Below, piece by piece: positions 4,514 through 28,421 of a DNA stretch of 64,000 nucleotides (positions within the stretch are counted from its first letter, which is position 1; the number at the start of each line of letters is the position of its first letter). Below the pieces are notes generated by a model that was not told the DNA's origin, made no database searches, and saw only the letters and a list, made by a program, of their open reading frames with translations. The position numbers and the translations under genes are program-made. This DNA is from Candidatus Tectimicrobiota bacterium (GTDB lineage: Bacteria; Tectomicrobia; Entotheonellia; Entotheonellales; Entotheonellaceae). The stretch is taken from contig BPKO01000008.1 of NCBI GenBank assembly GCA_026005175.1, positions 62,001 through 126,000 of the forward strand, in the 5' to 3' direction.

Positions 4514-4696
4514 GCGGCCGGGAACTCAGGCGCTGGGGAGTCCCCTCTGCGGGGGTGCTCAGTTGACCAGCAGGCGGCTGGCAGTGACGTCGCCGCAGCG
4601 GTACGGCATGCAGTAATTCCTTATCTCCGTATCGTGATGGCGGAGGCTTTTCCTGCCCTGCAGTATCGGCCGTTAGCAACAAAAACTTGAGCGCAC

Positions 4697-4719
4697 AAAA
4701 AGGGGACAGGCTACTTTTT
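4697..4719 (+). repeat. REP-like repeat, left copy of an inverted pair
   Basis: The stretch AAAAAGGGGACAGGCTACTT(TTT) lies in the gap between the nitroreductase and the SDR gene. Its reverse complement recurs at 5972-5993 with 22 matching bases. Motifs of this type occur in many bacterial genomes as short dispersed repeats, often near Y1/RAYT transposases; that link is from memory. No transposase is seen here. The rest of the 4514-4755 gap shows no convincing gene. Confidence 0.7.
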
Positions 4720-4755
4720 CTCGAGCGTCGGGAACACGGGCTGAGGAGGCAAAAG

Positions 4756-5506
4756 ATGGAGCTGCGCGGCACGGTGGCGGTGGTCACGGGCGGCAGTGGC
4801 GGGCTGGGACGGCGGATTTGCCACGCGCTGGCGCGCGCCGGCAGCCACGTGGCGGTGGTCTACCTGCAGAGCCGCGAGCAGGCACAGGCCGTGGCGGACG
4901 CGCTGCGGGCGCTGGGCGTGCGCGCCGAGGCCATGGCCTGCGATGTGAGCGACGCGGCGCAAGTGCAGCGCCTGGTGGCGCAAGTCCTGGAAGTCTTTGG
5001 CCGCCTTGACATCCTGGTCAACGACGCAGCGTACAACCAGTGGATTCCTTTTGCCGATCTTGAGGCGCTCACAGAGGCGGTGTGGCACAAGATCCTCAGC
5101 GTCAACCTCACCGGACCGCTGCTGTGCAGCAAAGCCGTGGCGCCGATCATGCGCCGGCAAGGGCAGGGGCGCATCGTCAACATTGCCTCCATCGCCGGAC
5201 TGCTGCCCACAGGGTCCTCGATTGCCTACGCCGTCTCCAAGGCCGGCCTCATCCACCTCACCCGCTGCCTGGCTGTGGCCTTGGCCCCGCAGGTGCTGGT
5301 GAACTGCATTGCCCCGGGCTACCTGGAAGGCACCAGAGCCACTGCCAACCTCGACCCGGCGTACCAGGAGGCGGCGCGGCGTGGGGCCCTGCTGCAGCGG
5401 GCCGCGGACAAAGACGACATTGCCGACCAGGTGGTGGCCCTCTGCCGCAGCAACAGCATCACCGGCCAGACTCTGGTGATCGACGCCGGCCCGCTGCTTC
5501 CACTGA
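4756..5506 (+). CDS. Short-chain dehydrogenase/reductase (SDR), frameshifted at the 3' end
   Basis: NAD(P)-dependent oxidoreductase, likely a 3-oxoacyl-ACP reductase-type enzyme. It has the cofactor motif TGGSGGLGRRI, NDAA, a catalytic Ser in IASIAG and the YAVSKAG catalytic Tyr/Lys. The start at 4756 follows GAGGAGG; the track start (4687) lies upstream in the repeat. As given, the frame has no stop after the natural end (VIDAG) and runs to 6234 across the antisense EipA-like gene. Removing one C from CCC at 5490-5492 gives VIDAGRCFH and a TGA at 5504-5506, a typical SDR ending at about 249 aa. The 3' extension of the track ORF is therefore rejected. Confidence 0.85.
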
Positions 5507-5520
5507 AGGCGCCGGGGATG

Positions 5521-5916
5521 CTAAAACGGGACCCAGGACTTCTTCCGCGTATAGTGCGTGTATCCGACGACGAGGACAAAGACCTTTGCGGCATTGGCTC
5601 CCACATCGAACCCGAGCGACGGGCCTGTCCAGTGCACCGTGGCGCGCCTGCCGTCCTTGAGCTGCAGCGTGCCGCTGCCATAACGCAAGCCCACAGCGAA
5701 GGCTCCGGCGATTTCCTCTCCAGCAATGTAGCCGTTTGGCTGTCCCAGGTCTTCAAAGGCTTTGGCGACGACTTGCGCCAGCGCTTCGGTGCTTTCGCCA
5801 AAAAAGGCGGCGATTTCCTTGAGAATCGTGTCCTTGTCGTACGTTTCCTGCGCTGCCGCGGGAGCAATGCCCAGTCCCAACATCGCAGCGAGGAGGCTTA
5901 TCCACAACCAGGACAT
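5521..5916 (-). CDS. EipA/DUF1134-like periplasmic protein, internally shortened
   Basis: Small exported protein of 131 aa. The signal peptide MSWLWISLLAAMLGLGIAPAAA is followed by a DUF1134-like domain (GYIAGEEIAGAFAVGLRYG, GPSLGFDVGANAAKVFVLV). In EipA, a cell-envelope protein described in Brucella, roughly 40-50 residues separate this segment from the final LG-x-N-x-GY..TR-x-x-W-PF. Here they are joined directly as VLVVGYTHYTRKKSWVPF, so an internal in-frame deletion or a short subfamily is likely. The start at 5916 is preceded by GGGGAG; the longer track start (5973) lies in the repeat. It is convergent with the SDR gene. The family call comes from remembered motifs. Confidence 0.65.
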   Translation of the reverse strand: MSWLWISLLAAMLGLGIAPAAAQETYDKDTILKEIAAFFGESTEALAQVVAKAFEDLGQPNGYIAGEEIAGAFAVGLRYGSGTLQLKDGRRATVHWTGPSLGFDVGANAAKVFVLVVGYTHYTRKKSWVPF

Positions 5917-5963
5917 CCCGCGTCTCCCCTGTTTCTCGTTGTCACGATGAGAGGAGGCATTCT

Positions 5964-6608
5964 GTGGAAGCAAAAAGTAGCCTGTCCCCTTTTCGGTGCG
6001 CGGTGGTGCTGTTTGAGGGCTTTACCGTGCTTGATGTTTACGGACCGGTGCAAGCGTTTGCCAGCTGCCGCGTGCCGCAGCCCGATGGCAGTGAGCAGCG
6101 CCTCTTCACGCTTTTTAGCATGGCCATGGCTCCTGGGATCGTACGCAGCAGCGAAGGGCCGCCTTCGTATGCCGAGTACAGCTTTGTCACAGCCCCGGGC
6201 CCCTACGATATTCTGCTCATCCCCGGCGGCCTAGGCACGCGCACCGCCGTCAACGACGCCGATTTTTTGCGCCACCTGGCGGCGGCCAGCCAGCGTGCCC
6301 GCCTCACCGCCACCGTGTGTACGGGCTCGGCCCTGCTGGCACGCACCGGCCTCCTCGACGGCCGCCCGGCGACGTCCAACAAGCTCGCCTGGGACTGGGT
6401 GGTGCAGCAAGGCCCTCGCGTGCACTGGCAGCGACAAGCGCGCTGGATCGACGCCGGCAACATCGTCACCGCTTCAGGCGTTTCGGCCGGCATCGACATG
6501 GCCCTGGGGCTGGTGGCCCGCCTGTGCGGTCGCGACATAGCCCGTGCGGCCGCTCGCCGCATGGAATACCGCTGGCACGAAGACCCCGCAGACGACCCCT
6601 TTGCCTGA
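5964..6608 (+). CDS. DJ-1/PfpI family protein (isocyanide hydratase-like)
   Basis: Class I glutamine-amidotransferase-like fold of 214 aa. The core begins at CAVVLFEGFTVLDVYGP. The nucleophile elbow is TVCTGSALLARTG, with Cys as nucleophile, followed by LLDGRPATSNK and the late ASGVSAGIDMALG, all as in cyclohexyl-isocyanide hydratase-like proteins and AraC-type DJ-1 domains. No HTH domain follows, so it is probably an enzyme. The GTG at 5964 has GAGGAGG six bases upstream; the REP-like repeat lies directly after it, so the native N-terminus may have been altered. The substrate is unknown. Confidence 0.8.
   Translation: MEAKSSLSPFRCAVVLFEGFTVLDVYGPVQAFASCRVPQPDGSEQRLFTLFSMAMAPGIVRSSEGPPSYAEYSFVTAPGPYDILLIPGGLGTRTAVNDADFLRHLAAASQRARLTATVCTGSALLARTGLLDGRPATSNKLAWDWVVQQGPRVHWQRQARWIDAGNIVTASGVSAGIDMALGLVARLCGRDIARAAARRMEYRWHEDPADDPFA
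5972..5993 (-). repeat. REP-like repeat, right copy of the inverted pair
   Basis: This is the reverse complement of the 4697-4719 copy over 22 bases; the flanking GTGCGC is also shared with a one-base offset. It falls just after the probable GTG start of the DJ-1-like gene, so the repeat would encode that protein's first residues (EAKSSLSP). Confidence 0.7.
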
Positions 6609-22402: not shown

Positions 22403-22436
22403 CAGAGGCAGGCCCCTCGTGCCGGGACGCGAAACC

Positions 22437-24185
22437 ATGACCTTGCCCGCTTACGAGACGCTGACCACCGACATCCTTATCCTGGGCAGCGGCGGCGCCG
22501 GCCTGCTTGCCGCCCTGCACGCCCACGACGCCCAGCCTCGCGCCTCGATCCACATCCTGGTCAAGGGCCTGCTGGGCAAGTCTGGCTGCACGCGCATGGT
22601 GCAGGGTGGCTACAACGCCGTGCTGCACCCCCAGGACTCCCTGGAGCTGCACTTTCGCGACACCCTGGCCGGGGGGGCGTACTTGAACGACCAGGAGCTG
22701 GCCTGGACCCTGGTGGCGCAGGCGCCCGAGCGCATCCGCGAGCTGGAAAGCCGCTTTGGGTGCTTTTTTGACCGCAACCCTGATGGCACCCTGCACCAGA
22801 AGCCCTTTGCCGGGCAGTCCTTTGACCGCACCGTGCACCGCGGCGACCTCACCGGCATCGAGATCATGAACCGCCTCGCAGAGCAGGTGCTGCGCCACGG
22901 CCTTCCCACCCTGGAGGACCACCGTGCCCTGGCGCTGCTGCCCAGCGCCGACGGCGGCGGCGTTGCCGGGGCGCTGTGCCTCGACGTGCGGCGCGGCACT
23001 TTCCTGGTCATCCGCGCCAAAGCCACGCTGCTGGCCACCGGCGGCGGCCCCACGATGTACAAAATCACCGCCGCCTCGGCAGAAAAGACCGTCGACGGCC
23101 TGGCCATGGCCTTTCGTGCCGGTGCCCGCCTGGTGGACATGGAGATGGTGCAGTTTCACCCCACCGGCTTGCTGGTAGGCGAGTCGGGAATGAGCGGCAC
23201 GGTGCTCGAAGAGGGGTTGCGCGGCGCCGGCGGCCACCTGCTCAACGGCCGCGGCGAGCGCTTCATGGCCAAGTACGACCCGCAGCGCCTGGAGCGCTCC
23301 ACGCGCGACATCGTGGCGCGCAGCGCCTATCTGGAAATCATGGCCGGGCGCGGCACGCCGCACGGCGGCGTGTACCTCGACGTCTCGCACCTGGGCGCGG
23401 CGTTCGTGGAGCAGCACTTCCCGGGCATGGTGGCGCGCTGCCGCGACATGGGCTTTGACCTGGCGCGCGAGCCGGTCGAAGTCTCGCCCACCGCGCACTA
23501 CCTCATGGGCGGGGTGAAAATCGACACGGCTTGCCGCAGCAACCTCGAAGGGCTCTTCGTGGCCGGCGAGGACGCCGGAGGCGTGCACGGCGCCAACCGC
23601 CTGGGCGGCAACGGCGTGGCCTGCTCCACCGTCTTTGGGGGAATTGCCGGCGACAGCATGGCGGCCTACCTTGCCGGCCGGGCACTGCCGCCCCTTGACG
23701 AGGCGCAGGTGCGCGCTGCCCTGGCGTGGGCGGTGGCGCCCTTTGCCGCCGCTGGAGAGGAAGACGTCTACGCCTTGCGCGACGAGCTCAAGGCGCTGAT
23801 GTGGGAAAAGGCGGGGCTGGTGCGCCACGCGAGCGACCTCAAGGCGGCGCAGGAAGCCTTAGCGCACTTGCGGTGGCGTGCTGCGCGCGTGCGCGTGCAC
23901 GGCACGCCGCGCCTCAACCTGGAGTGGCAGGAGTGGCTGAACCTCGACAGCCTGCTCACCGTTTCTGACCTCATCGTGGCCAGCGCCCTGGAGCGACAAG
24001 AAAGCCGGGGGTCGCACTACCGCAGCGACTACCCGCACCCGGACGACGGCCAGCTCTACAACGTCTACGTGCAGCGCGAGGGCGAAGCCTGGCGCCTGTG
24101 GCGCCAGCCGGTGGTTTTTTCCCGCCTCAAGCCGCCGGCCACGGGCACGCCCGAAAGGGCTTACTTGGCGCAGGAGGGGGAGTGA
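22437..24185 (+). CDS. Fumarate reductase/succinate dehydrogenase flavoprotein subunit
   Basis: Interconverts succinate and fumarate using FAD, on the cytoplasmic face of the membrane complex; 582 aa. The FAD fold is ILILGSGGAGLLAAL; VQFHPTG, the capping-domain Arg region and GEDAGGVHGANRLGGN are intact, as is ESRGSHYRSDYP near the end. The residue that is His in covalent flavoproteins (RSHT-type motif) is Cys51 here (KSGCTRMVQGG), so FAD is probably not covalently bound, as in thiol:fumarate-reductase-like enzymes and NadB. First gene of a five-gene operon; the GTG at 22419 is an alternative start. Confidence 0.9.
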   Translation: MTLPAYETLTTDILILGSGGAGLLAALHAHDAQPRASIHILVKGLLGKSGCTRMVQGGYNAVLHPQDSLELHFRDTLAGGAYLNDQELAWTLVAQAPERIRELESRFGCFFDRNPDGTLHQKPFAGQSFDRTVHRGDLTGIEIMNRLAEQVLRHGLPTLEDHRALALLPSADGGGVAGALCLDVRRGTFLVIRAKATLLATGGGPTMYKITAASAEKTVDGLAMAFRAGARLVDMEMVQFHPTGLLVGESGMSGTVLEEGLRGAGGHLLNGRGERFMAKYDPQRLERSTRDIVARSAYLEIMAGRGTPHGGVYLDVSHLGAAFVEQHFPGMVARCRDMGFDLAREPVEVSPTAHYLMGGVKIDTACRSNLEGLFVAGEDAGGVHGANRLGGNGVACSTVFGGIAGDSMAAYLAGRALPPLDEAQVRAALAWAVAPFAAAGEEDVYALRDELKALMWEKAGLVRHASDLKAAQEALAHLRWRAARVRVHGTPRLNLEWQEWLNLDSLLTVSDLIVASALERQESRGSHYRSDYPHPDDGQLYNVYVQREGEAWRLWRQPVVFSRLKPPATGTPERAYLAQEGE

Positions 24186-24481
24186 TGGCCAGGCCCTCCT
24201 TGCCGGCCAGCGGCAAGCCGGCTTACCTGGGCATGTGGACCTGGCTGGTGCAGCGCCTGGCGTCGCTGGCCTTGCTGGTGCTGCTGCCCTGGCACTGGCT
24301 CAACCCTTACTTGCGGCCGGTGCGCATCGCCGTTTTGGCCCTCGTGCTCTTGCACGCCATGGCCGGCATCCGCGTCATGCTCCTCGACCTGGGCTTTGGC
24401 GAGCGCTGGCAGCGCGGCCTGGTGTGGCTGCTGGCTGCCCTGGGGGCCGGGCTGTTTTTCTTCTTCGTGCAGTTTGCCTGA
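24185..24481 (+). CDS. Succinate dehydrogenase/fumarate reductase membrane anchor subunit
   Basis: 98-aa protein with three membrane helices. LLHAMAGIRVMLLDLG resembles the conserved His-x(n)-G-R..DLG segment of SdhC/SdhD anchors that contacts quinone or haem. Its ATG shares bases with the flavoprotein TGA (TGATG), and the iron-sulfur gene follows after 7 bp, so its role is fixed mostly by position. Only one anchor gene is present, so two copies may pair or a partner may lie elsewhere. Confidence 0.8.
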   Translation: MARPSLPASGKPAYLGMWTWLVQRLASLALLVLLPWHWLNPYLRPVRIAVLALVLLHAMAGIRVMLLDLGFGERWQRGLVWLLAALGAGLFFFFVQFA

Positions 24482-24488
24482 GGGCGCC

Positions 24489-25235
24489 ATGGAGTGGCTG
24501 GTGGAGGTTTACCGCTACGATCCCGCGCAGGACACGGCGGGGCGGCTGGTCACGTACCGGGTGCCGGCGCGGGAGAAGCTGACCGTGCTCGACGCCCTGC
24601 TGTACATCCAGCGCCACCACGACCGCTCGCTGGCCTTTCGCTACGCCTGCCGCCTGGGCATGTGCGGCACCTGCACGGTGATGGTCAACGGCATTCCGCG
24701 CTGGGCCTGCCGCACCTCGCTGGCCCGCCTGAAGGGGCCGCGGCTGCGCATCACTCCCTTGCGCCACCTGCCGGTCATCAAAGACGTGCTCGTTGACTTT
24801 ACCCCCTTTATGGACAAGTACCGCGCCGCCATGGGCTACTTTGTTCCGGCTGGGGAGGCGGCTGCGCCGGTGCGCCTGGCCCCGCAGGGGCGCGAGCGGC
24901 AGACCATCGACCCGCACCTTCAGTGCATCACCTGCGGCGCCTGCTACGCGGCGTGCACCATGCTGGCGCAAGACCCGCAGTACCTGGGGCCGGCGGCGCT
25001 CAACCGCGCCTTTACCCTGGTGCACGACTCCCGCGACGGGGCGCGGGCGGCGCGCCTGGCCGCCGTGGGCGGCGAGCACGGCTGCTGGCGCTGCCACACC
25101 CTGGCCAACTGCACCGAGGTCTGCCCCTTGCAGCTGCGTCCCTCGCGTGCCATCCAGGGGCTCAAGCGGGCCATTGTTAGCGACTGGCTGCGCCGGGCGC
25201 TGTTCCCCAGCCAGCAGCGGGAGGAAGACCGATGA
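24489..25235 (+). CDS. Succinate dehydrogenase/fumarate reductase iron-sulfur subunit
   Basis: Carries electrons between FAD and quinone; 248 aa. The N-terminal ferredoxin domain has the 2Fe-2S ligands YACRLGMCGTCTVMVNG and a later RWAC. The C-terminal domain has CITCGACYAACTM and CWRCHTLANCTEVCPL for the second and third clusters. It overlaps the fumarase alpha gene by 4 bp (ATGA). Confidence 0.92.
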   Translation: MEWLVEVYRYDPAQDTAGRLVTYRVPAREKLTVLDALLYIQRHHDRSLAFRYACRLGMCGTCTVMVNGIPRWACRTSLARLKGPRLRITPLRHLPVIKDVLVDFTPFMDKYRAAMGYFVPAGEAAAPVRLAPQGRERQTIDPHLQCITCGACYAACTMLAQDPQYLGPAALNRAFTLVHDSRDGARAARLAAVGGEHGCWRCHTLANCTEVCPLQLRPSRAIQGLKRAIVSDWLRRALFPSQQREEDR

Positions 25236-26162
25236 TCCGCACGGCCACCATTTACCAAGCGGCCTGCGAGCTGCACCGCCTGGCAGCGATCAAGATCCCG
25301 GAAGACGTGCGCCGGGCCGTGGCGCGCATGCACGAGCGCGAAACCCATCAGCTGGCCAAGTACGTCCTGGGGCAGATCGTGCAGAACTACGAGCTGGCTA
25401 TTGCCGAGCAGCGCCCCATGTGTGCCGATACCGGTCTGCCGCGCTTTTACGCCAAGGTGGGCAACGAGGCCCCGCATCGAGGGCGGCATGGTGGCCCTGG
25501 AGCGGGCGCTGCGCCAGGCCACGGCCGATGCCACCGCCGCCATTCCCCTGCGCCCCAACCGCGTGCACCCGCTGACGCGTAAGGACCCCAACAACAACGT
25601 CGGCGTGCACGCCCCCACGGTGGACTACAGCTTCGAGCCCGACGCCGACTGGCTCGACCTCACCGTGGTGCACAAGGGCGGGCTATTTGGCGGCGACTAC
25701 CGCATGCTCTTTCCGGCCGACGGCCTTGACGGCATCAAGCGCTTTTTCCTCGACAGCATCAGCGAGTTCTTCCGCCGCGGCATGGCCTGCCAGCCGCTGG
25801 TGGTGGGGCTGGGCATCGGCGGCACCAAAGACGTCTGCGTGCGCCTGGCCAAAGAAGCGGCCTGCCTGCGCCTGGTGGGCGACCGCCATCCCGACCCGGA
25901 CATCGCCGCCCTGGAAGAGGAACTGCTGGCGCTGGGCAACGCCACCGGCTTTGGCGCCATGGGCTTTCCTGGCGACAGCAGCATCATGGACGTGCACGTC
26001 GAAATTGCTTACACCCACACCGGGGGCATGCCGGTGGCCATCCAGCAGTTCTGCTTTGCCCACCGGCGCATGAGCGCCCGCATCGACGCCGACAACCGCG
26101 TCACGTACCGCGAAGATCCGCAGTGGTTCACCCCCTACTACCGCCGCGACGGCATTGCCTGA
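25232..26162 (+). CDS. Class I fumarate hydratase alpha subunit (frameshifted)
   Basis: Oxygen-sensitive 4Fe-4S hydratase, N-terminal-domain subunit, converting fumarate and malate; L-tartrate dehydratase is the close alternative. The frame starting at 25232 reads through CADTGLPRFYAKVGNEA and then breaks; the ORF at 25401 continues with RIEGGMVALERAL, PNNNVGVHAP and IGGTKDVC. Deleting one C from the C4 run at 25470-25473 gives GNEARIEGGMV and a single protein of about 309 aa, normal length. ATGA coupling to the iron-sulfur subunit and the adjacent beta subunit support the assignment. Confidence 0.88.
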
Positions 26163-26174
26163 AGGAGCGCCGCC

Positions 26175-26855
26175 ATGACCCAGGCCACCCCGCCCGGTAT
26201 GCGCGAAGTGCACCTGCAGCTGCCCCTGAGCGAGGAGAGCGTGCGGGCCTTGCAGCTTGGCGACGCCGTCTTCCTCAGCGGGCTGCTCTTTACCGGCCGC
26301 GAGGGCGTGTACCGGCAGCTTTTTGAGCGCGGCCTTGCCCCGCCGCTTGACCTGCGCACCTGCAACGTCAACTTTCACTGCTCTCCGGCGGTGAGCGAGG
26401 TGGCGCCCGGGCAGTACCGCATGCCCTCGGTAACCGCCACCGCCAGCTTCCGCTTTGCCAAGTACGTGCCGCTGCTGCTCGAGCGCTACGGCGTGCGCGC
26501 CATCATCGGCAAAGGCGGCATGCAGCCGGAGGTGTACGAGAGCGCCTTTCGCCGCTTTGGCGCCGTTTACCTCACCACCGTGGGGTACGGCCTGGGCGCC
26601 ACGTACGGCAAAGGCATCCGCCGCGTCAAGGACGTCTTCTGGAAAGAGGAGCTCGGCCTGGCGCAGGCGCTGTGGGTGCTGGAGGTAGAAAACCTGGGGC
26701 CGTTTCTTGTGGAATGCGACGCCGAAGGGCGCAGTCTTTTTGCCCGCGCCAACGCCGAGATCAACGCCCGGCTGCAGCACCTCTACGCCGGGCTGCCGCC
26801 GCCGGCCCTGCGGCGGCTCGGCGAGGTCACTTCCCCTACCGAGGAAGTGCTGTAG
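26175..26855 (+). CDS. Class I fumarate hydratase beta subunit
   Basis: C-terminal-domain subunit of the two-part fumarase/tartrate dehydratase, 226 aa. LQLGDAVFLSGLLFTGREGVYRQL, GPLDL-like LDLRTCNVNFHCSPA, IIGKGGM and TVGYGLGATYGKGI are all typical. AAGGAG lies 8 bases before the ATG, 12 bp after the alpha stop. With the three preceding genes it forms a succinate-fumarate-malate module. Confidence 0.9.
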   Translation: MTQATPPGMREVHLQLPLSEESVRALQLGDAVFLSGLLFTGREGVYRQLFERGLAPPLDLRTCNVNFHCSPAVSEVAPGQYRMPSVTATASFRFAKYVPLLLERYGVRAIIGKGGMQPEVYESAFRRFGAVYLTTVGYGLGATYGKGIRRVKDVFWKEELGLAQALWVLEVENLGPFLVECDAEGRSLFARANAEINARLQHLYAGLPPPALRRLGEVTSPTEEVL

Positions 26856-26882
26856 CTTTCCGGCCGCGCCCGAGCGCCAGCG

Positions 26883-26891
26883 TGCTATAAT
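26883..26891 (+). promoter_or_regulatory. Extended -10 element upstream of the coiled-coil gene
   Basis: TGCTATAAT, a perfect extended -10 box, 21 bp before the ATG at 26913; no clear -35 is seen. Confidence 0.45.
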
Positions 26892-26912
26892 GGCGGCAGG
26901 AGGATTGCAGCC

Positions 26913-27806
26913 ATGCTGCTGTTCAATCCCTTACGCCTGCGAAACCGCCTCGTCGACAGTGGCATGCCCGTGGCGCAGGCCGAGGCACTGGCCGAGGTGC
27001 TCTGCGAGCCCGAAGTCACCGAGCTGGCGACCCGAAGCGACCTCACCGAAGTGCGCGGCGAGCTCCAGGGCCTGCGCAGCCAAATCCGGGAACTGCGCAC
27101 CGATCTCCAAGGGTTGCGCACCGAGGTCTACGGCCAAATTCAGGAACTACGGGCCGACGTCCAGGGTCAAATCCAAGGCCTGCGCACTGAGGTCCACGGT
27201 CAAATCCAGGAACTGCGTGCTGAGGTCCAGGGTCAATTCCAGGAACTGCGCGCTGAAAACCAAACCCTACGCGCTGATCTCCAAGGGCTGCGCACCGAGG
27301 TCTACGGCCAATTCCAGGAACTGCGCGCTGAAAACCAAACCCTACGCGCTGATCTCCAAGGCCTGCGCACTGAGGTCCACGGTCAAATCCAGGAACTGCG
27401 TGCTGAGGTCCAGGGTCAACTCCAGGAACTGCGCGCTGAAAACCAAAGCCTGCGCACCGAGCTCCAGGGCCTGCGCACCGACGTCCAGGGTCAATTCCAG
27501 GAACTGCGCGCTGAAAACCAAACCCTACGCGCCGAGCTGCATGGCCAAATCCAGGAGCTACGCACTGAAATGCGCACCGAGATGCAGCGCTTGCGCAACG
27601 AAAACCAGGAGCTGCGGACCGAAGTGCGCACCGAGCTCCAGAACCTACATAACGAAAACCAGGACTTGCGCACCGAAGTGCAGCGCGTCTTGCACGAACT
27701 GCGCGCGGAAATGGCCCGCACCGAAGCCCGCCTGATGCGCTGGATGATCGCCGGCGCCGCCCTGGGCGGCCTGGTGGGCAGCTTCGTGGGCAGCCTGGCG
27801 CGCTGA
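26913..27806 (+). CDS. Coiled-coil protein built of 7- and 11-residue LR modules with C-terminal membrane helix
   Basis: 297-aa protein of unknown function. Residues 1-45 are a short helical head (DSGMPVAQAEALAEVL recalls the DUF1640/CCDC90 family start). Residues about 50-270 are an uninterrupted coiled coil made only of units that begin with LR (LH once): 11-residue units such as LRTEVYGQIQE and 7-residue units such as LRAENQT and LRADLQG. A membrane segment (MIAGAALGGLVGSFVGSL) closes the protein. The DNA is correspondingly repetitive, which opens long false ORFs in other frames. GGAGG precedes the ATG. The MT-A70 gene follows 21 bp later. Confidence 0.82.
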   Translation: MLLFNPLRLRNRLVDSGMPVAQAEALAEVLCEPEVTELATRSDLTEVRGELQGLRSQIRELRTDLQGLRTEVYGQIQELRADVQGQIQGLRTEVHGQIQELRAEVQGQFQELRAENQTLRADLQGLRTEVYGQFQELRAENQTLRADLQGLRTEVHGQIQELRAEVQGQLQELRAENQSLRTELQGLRTDVQGQFQELRAENQTLRAELHGQIQELRTEMRTEMQRLRNENQELRTEVRTELQNLHNENQDLRTEVQRVLHELRAEMARTEARLMRWMIAGAALGGLVGSFVGSLAR

Positions 27807-27827
27807 GGACTTGCGGAGAGGGGGCCG

Positions 27828-28421
27828 ATGCCCGACGCCCTGCCTGCGCAGGCGACACCGGCAGCCGCGCTGCGGGCCCAGGTGCAAGGCCGCTTCGGCA
27901 CCATCCTGGCCGACCCGCCCTGGCGCTTCACCAACCGTACCGGCAAGATGGCCCCCGAACACCGCCGCCTTGCCCGCTACCCTACCCTCACCCTGGCCGA
28001 TATCCTCGCCCTGCCGGTGGCCGAGCTGGCCCTGCCGCAAAGCCATCTCTACCTCTGGGTGCCCAACGCCCTGCTGCGCGAAGGCCTTGAAGTCATGGAA
28101 CGCTGGGGCTTTACTTACAAAACCACCCTGGTGTGGTACAAAGTGCGCCGCGACGGCGGCCCGGACCGGCGCGGCGTGGGCTTTTACTTCCGCAACGTGA
28201 CCGAGCTGGTTCTCTTTGGCACGCGGGGCAACCTGCGCACTCTGGCGCCGGGACGGCGGCAAGCCAACATCATCGTCAGCCGCAAGCGCGAGCACTCGCG
28301 CAAACCCGACGAGCTCTACGATGTTATCGAGCGCTGCAGCCCCGGCCCCTACCTGGAGCTCTTCGCCCGCCAGCTGCGACCCGGCTGGACGCAGTGGGGC
28401 GACGCGCTCGCCCCGCGCTAG
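27828..28421 (+). CDS. MT-A70 family N6-adenine methyltransferase
   Basis: SAM-dependent adenine-N6 methyltransferase, 197 aa. The catalytic motif is DPPW (ILADPPWRF, Asp29), followed by LYLWVPNALL, FTYKTTLVWYK, the family segment FYFRNVTELVLFGTRG and SRKREHSRKPDELYDVIE. In bacteria such proteins methylate DNA, often in phages and mobile elements; RNA is possible. No restriction enzyme or specificity subunit is adjacent, so it is an orphan. GGAGAGGGGG precedes the ATG. Its stop overlaps the convergent DoxX stop in CTAG. Confidence 0.9.
   Translation: MPDALPAQATPAAALRAQVQGRFGTILADPPWRFTNRTGKMAPEHRRLARYPTLTLADILALPVAELALPQSHLYLWVPNALLREGLEVMERWGFTYKTTLVWYKVRRDGGPDRRGVGFYFRNVTELVLFGTRGNLRTLAPGRRQANIIVSRKREHSRKPDELYDVIERCSPGPYLELFARQLRPGWTQWGDALAPR

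Follow-up and report, generated by a model that had tools for sequence, protein, structure and literature searches.

What sort of protein is built largely from two repeated words of 7 and 11 residues, and what is it likely to do? This question is raised by an open reading frame on contig BPKO01000008.1 of Candidatus Tectimicrobiota bacterium. We analyzed the whole 64,000-nucleotide stretch in which it lies (hereafter the window, whose coordinates we use). The open reading frame starts with an ATG at 26913, its stop codon ends at 27806, and it encodes 297 amino acids. By sequence, it has the architecture of the DUF1640/CCDC90-like family, with a head, a neck, a stalk, and a predicted membrane anchor:

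26913..27806, + strand: whole gene, DUF1640/CCDC90-like membrane-anchored coiled-coil protein of 297 aa (open reading frame and Pfam family PF07798)
26913..27016, + strand: N-terminal two-helix head (residues 1-34, GMPxxQA; fuller form SGMPxxQAE), from the leave-one-out profile and AlphaFold2
27024..27041, + strand: putative beta-layer neck motif LATRSD (residues 38-43), from the published consensus, the alignment, and a helix break in the models
27072..27698, + strand: stalk (residues 54-262) of 23 LR/LH units, each closed and 7 or 11 residues long, followed by an open LRAEMAR
27171..27536, + strand: tandem duplication of a 183-nt (61-residue) segment, the two copies 91.8% identical, from DNA comparison
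27732..27803, + strand: LMRW junction and predicted C-terminal membrane helix with a glycine zipper (residues 274-297), from hydropathy

Between residue 54 and the last anchor at residue 263, there are 11 units of heptad length (7 residues) and 12 of hendecad length (11 residues), each beginning with LR or LH. Their order is 7,7,11,11,11,11,7,7,11,7,7,11,11,7,7,11,7,11,11,7,11,7,11. An earlier note on this DNA had listed these 23 bounded units exactly; it had also counted a final 7 (LRAEMAR), which has no closing LR. One unit (residues 205-215, LRAELHGQIQE) can alternatively be read as 4+7 because there is an LH at residue 209. When every pair of unit lengths from 5 to 15 was tried, only 7 and 11 chained all 24 anchors; the runner-up chained 14. 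In 300 shuffled stalks, the longest chain with steps of 7 and 11 had 3 anchors (two units). The LR/LH pattern is real and goes beyond chance. The 209 residues of the stalk correspond to 58 helical turns, or 3.603 residues per turn, and Fourier analysis of its hydrophobicity gives a peak at 3.60. This periodicity bears out the coiled coil of mixed heptads and hendecads that had been proposed.

The whole protein matches the CCDC90-like family in Pfam (PF07798) at 76.4 bits (curated cut-off 33.5). Because coiled coils inflate Pfam scores, we tested the head separately. A profile was built from the head and neck regions of 19 relatives, with this protein left out, and searched against the 941 open reading frames of the window: it matches this one at E = 7.4e-13 and the next at 2.2. 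Most of the 19 relatives were collected with the pattern GMPExQA, so the conservation of the head motif is partly due to their selection; the neck motif lies outside the pattern. In prokaryotic and mitochondrial membrane proteins of the DUF1640 family, a beta-layer of the form [aliphatic]-A-T-K-[polar]-[DE] begins the stalk (PMC4786415). LATRSD fits this consensus with R for K, and ATK or ATR is aligned in most of the relatives. AlphaFold2 models have helices at residues 6-15 and 20-31; the neck interrupts the helical structure, after which a single helix runs from 45 to 295.

A further profile, made from 20 aligned head-to-stalk regions (this protein among them), was compared to solved structures. 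The top match was human CCDC90B (6h9m; E = 5e-8, with the match starting from the third position of the profile), followed by 6h9l (an "uncharacterized protein" with ATKED repeats) and then 5apz (Thermosinus Tcar0761). A fold search with two models against the PDB gave no significant match, but the long helix makes this search uninformative. No relative came up when the genome contigs were scanned with this one sequence, and the closest relatives in two Entotheonella genomes (G002 and G003; see below) score below the Pfam cut-off when taken singly. We also considered naming the protein from NCBIfam and rejected this: TIGR04211 (below its cut-off) and sll1863_fam (just above) both matched the coiled coil only. 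For proteins with such repetitive stalks, we suggest taking the family name from the head and neck rather than from the repeats. Overall, family membership and the arrangement of head, neck, stalk, and anchor are established at the level of sequence. The earlier note had the structure broadly right but overlooked the family, the head, and the beta-layer neck, which lie in the first 50 residues.

The two copies of the 183-nt segment (27171-27353 and 27354-27536) differ at about 15 of 183 bases. Within the 61-residue segment there is also a period of 75 nt (25 residues), with about 91% identity at that shift. Both repeats comprise only complete modules (61 = 3x11+4x7 and 25 = 11+2x7). Where the residues match, the codons match in 84% of cases for the 61-residue shift and 75% for the 25-residue shift, as compared to 57% expected from the codon usage of the stalk. 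This excess implies segmental duplication rather than convergence. Recent expansion had been suggested from near-identical blocks of DNA; the DNA repeats confirm the duplication, but the copies are about 8% diverged and not identical.

We compared five species of the phylum, in which the nearest genomes of the same family are those of Candidatus Entotheonella (OX639990.1 and OY282375.1, or G002 and G003). In Entotheonella, homologues that share the head have stalks of RF modules (7,7,7,11,11,11,11 in L012 and 7,7,7,11,11 in L016), and the tandem Entotheonella copies have heptads almost exclusively. Four homologues come from one alphaproteobacterium, CATOSZ01; they are built from LR/VR modules, 7 or 11 residues long, whose order differs between them. 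The 7/11 grammar is also found under other heads in genome G000 (L002, with FR and 17 anchors, and L005, with a perfect alternation of 11 and 7) and in several RF proteins of G000, G002, and G003. As the grammar occurs both in multiple homologues and in proteins with other heads, it is a recurrent stalk design and is not special to this gene. The earlier note named homologues with no such grammar as a refutation, and as a rule this is not what we see: several homologues and paralogues share it, though others are pure heptad or pure hendecad. Where paralogues with 92-98% identity differ in the stalk, the indels measure 21, 33, 63, 108, and 141 nt, or 7, 11, 21, 36, and 47 residues, and these are all sums of modules; the only non-module indel among close paralogues is 15 nt and lies at an anchor junction. 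Stalks thus usually gain and lose whole modules. For example, at one locus (L028; G003 3424500-3442000), four same-head paralogues lie within 10 kb, three of them are 98% identical, and one of these three has a clean 63-nt (three-heptad) indel. Modular stalk proteins are greatly expanded in the Entotheonella family, and this expansion looks undescribed.

Some other observations concern these relatives. Small coiled-coil proteins with RF modules gave 76 matches in G003, 26 in G002, and 16 in G000, many with C-terminal membrane helices, and about 12 RF-module genes lie in tandem at 3273-3282 kb of G003. L002 and L003 (on contigs C6 and C10 of G000) are longer proteins with another head, MPETPEELxRFIRxVVD; their stalks are FRQE-type 11/7 or pure 11, and their terminal membrane helices are near-identical. 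At L075 (CATOSZ010000003.1), the homologue lies between two copies of an open reading frame (200-1723 and 4632-6155) whose first 50 residues are identical and which reads like an IS21-type transposase; this genome has at least four such homologues.

The two words share their core. Position 1 is Leu in both. At position 5, the 11-residue word takes V, L, or M, and the 7-residue word takes N, L, or I; position 9 of the 11-residue word is almost always I, F, L, or M. This common logic (+0, +4, and +8 in the hendecads) makes the words interchangeable in order without breaking the hydrophobic stripe. A relaxed helix has 3.63 residues per turn (PMC4786415), and the stalk's period of 3.603 is close to this, which implies little supercoil. 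Relative to 3.63, the 7/11 mix gives a left-handed twist of about 0.7 degrees per residue, or a pitch of about 70 nm for a rod length of about 34 nm. The computed pitch is about 14 nm for heptads alone and about 54 nm (right-handed) for hendecads alone. The rod should be nearly straight, which we infer for the rod in solution. The earlier note attributed a near-straight rod to the mixing of words; the mean period does approach that of the unstrained helix, but mixing is unnecessary, as a pure hendecad rod would be about equally straight. We rejected a general tuning of the mix to 3.60-3.63 residues per turn, since stalks built in this way span 3.50 (pure heptads, in the tandem paralogues of G003) to 3.667 (pure hendecads, in L088 and L003). 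The phase balance of the unit order is unremarkable, with 15% of shuffled orders matching it.

At the C-terminus, hydropathy reaches a maximum of 1.7 at residues 278-296, which supports the membrane helix that had been predicted. This stretch contains a perfect glycine zipper (G281-x3-G285-x3-G289-x3-G293) that was not seen in the relatives' anchors; glycines at a spacing of four suggest tight packing of helices in the membrane. The LMRW junction before it (type [LM][KR]W) resembles the LLKW, LLRW, and LMKW of relatives. We inspected the N-terminus and saw nothing like a signal peptide. A tail anchor and no signal peptide by inspection would place both head and rod in the cytoplasm, and this topology, with the anchor in the inner membrane, is the most likely one. 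The picture of a long rod on the membrane thus holds as far as the predicted anchor and coiled coil go, but the rod would stand on the cytoplasmic side of the inner membrane and not at the cell surface.

Several lines of evidence bear on the number of chains in the rod. A trimer is expected from what Adlakha 2019 reportedly found for the family. Trimers have been described for beta-layers (PMC4786415). The hendecad cores are bulky (L/V/I-F-L) and contain no Ala, and bulky Ala-free hendecad cores require higher oligomers (PMC9858780); by this rule, a trimer or higher is favored. Asn is found at core position a in 6 of the 11 heptads. Asn at this position is frequent in dimers, so a dimeric stalk is possible. 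Three chains probably associate, with the Asn residues making the reading ambiguous.

Could the family assignment be a product of the repeats? The protein might be an unrelated, generic coiled coil, or an 11-mer amphipathic helix lying on the membrane like an apolipoprotein, with matches to the family arising from low-complexity LR/E/Q repeats. The stalk does match Apolipoprotein, bZIP, and HALZ among many coiled-coil families, and solved apolipoprotein A-I was matched weakly. However, the head and neck match the family on their own (E = 7.4e-13), and a stripe that has L/V/I at +0, +4, and +8 and a period of 3.60 residues per turn is a coiled-coil core, so we consider this explanation quite improbable. 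Still less probable is that the copy number is an assembly artefact, with blocks collapsed or expanded and a true stalk of another length. The genome is a draft (77.5% complete, 14 contigs) and the 183-nt copies are 92% identical. Yet the copies can be told apart by their differences and the open reading frame is intact; like modular stalks are found in paralogues from the single-contig Entotheonella genomes (G002 and G003); and the family assignment does not depend on the copy number.

Alternatively, the stalk might be exported beyond the inner membrane as a surface or periplasmic rod, like an adhesin. Trimeric autotransporter adhesins likewise have beta-layers and long modular stalks (PMC4786415). 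We think this improbable, given the N-terminus described above, a C-terminus that is one helix and not a YadA-type barrel, and a family that consists of proteins of the inner membrane or of organelle membranes.

In the window, the genes upstream (22419-28421 includes both sides of the locus) encode a flavoprotein and an iron-sulphur protein that read as succinate dehydrogenase/fumarate reductase-like, as well as both halves of a fumarase (by Pfam); an MT-A70 methyltransferase (27828-28421) begins 21 nt downstream. We rejected a link to the fumarase genes or to the methylase because the neighborhood differs at the homologous loci that we inspected. At those loci, we found no conserved neighbor that would point to a client.

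We consider it likely that the gene encodes a prokaryotic DUF1640/CCDC90-like protein, probably a trimer, with a cytoplasmic head on a rod of about 34 nm that is anchored in the inner membrane and acts as a spacer or scaffold. Beyond the beta-layer neck, on which the N-terminal heads would sit, the chains would run in parallel for about 229 residues (about 34 nm) to form the coiled-coil rod, which the glycine-zipper helix would fix in the inner membrane. As a spacer or scaffold, the rod may keep a putative client-binding head at a set distance from the membrane. By analogy with MCUR1 and MCU, the head may bind some client in or near the membrane. Because heptads and hendecads share their core logic, whole modules can be duplicated or deleted without loss of register, so the length of the rod can evolve quickly while supercoiling stays slight. 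A stronger proposal is that these proteins are adjustable molecular rulers: selection would act on the number and mix of modules, length would change in quantized steps of about 1.0 and 1.6 nm with a nearly straight core and the register preserved, and the same head would stand closer to the membrane or farther from it in different paralogues. This we regard as unlikely. To our knowledge, no function has been established for the MCUR1/CCDC90 family in bacteria, and the role of the mitochondrial members is still disputed. Put6 and Put7 act on mitochondrial proline metabolism, and MCUR1 binds MCU (PMC7519068). Together with the paralogues found in its relatives, this gene forms a natural series in which similar heads sit on rods of different length, the differences being whole heptads or hendecads; this makes it testable whether length matters to the family and how coiled coils grow in register.

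Among known systems, the closest is PF07798 itself (mitochondrial MCUR1 and CCDC90B, yeast Put6 and Put7, and prokaryotic homologues), which has the same head, beta-layer neck, coiled-coil stalk, and C-terminal membrane helix. The homologues with this head that we inspected are 84-214 residues in total, whereas the stalk here is about 229 residues and is made of two repeated words; the protein also differs in the R in place of K in the neck and in its glycine-zipper anchor. The Entotheonella paralogues in OX639990.1 and OY282375.1 (L012-L019 and L066-L072) share the head, the neck, the 7/11 modules, and the C-terminal membrane helix, but they have RF rather than LR words, short stalks, another anchor sequence, and a tandem gene array. 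FilP and Scy of Streptomyces are also long bacterial rods in which heptads are expanded by hendecads; they differ in that they are dimeric, have cores rich in Ala, and carry a DivIVA-like N-terminus (PMC9858780). Trimeric autotransporter adhesins (YadA, UspA1, and OMP100) resemble this protein in their beta-layers and in stalks of changing periodicity (PMC4786415); no YadA-type beta-barrel anchor is among its 25 best Pfam matches, and its C-terminus is a single helix. The family is a described one, and what is distinctive here is the length of the stalk, its relatively fresh duplications, and the glycine-zipper anchor.
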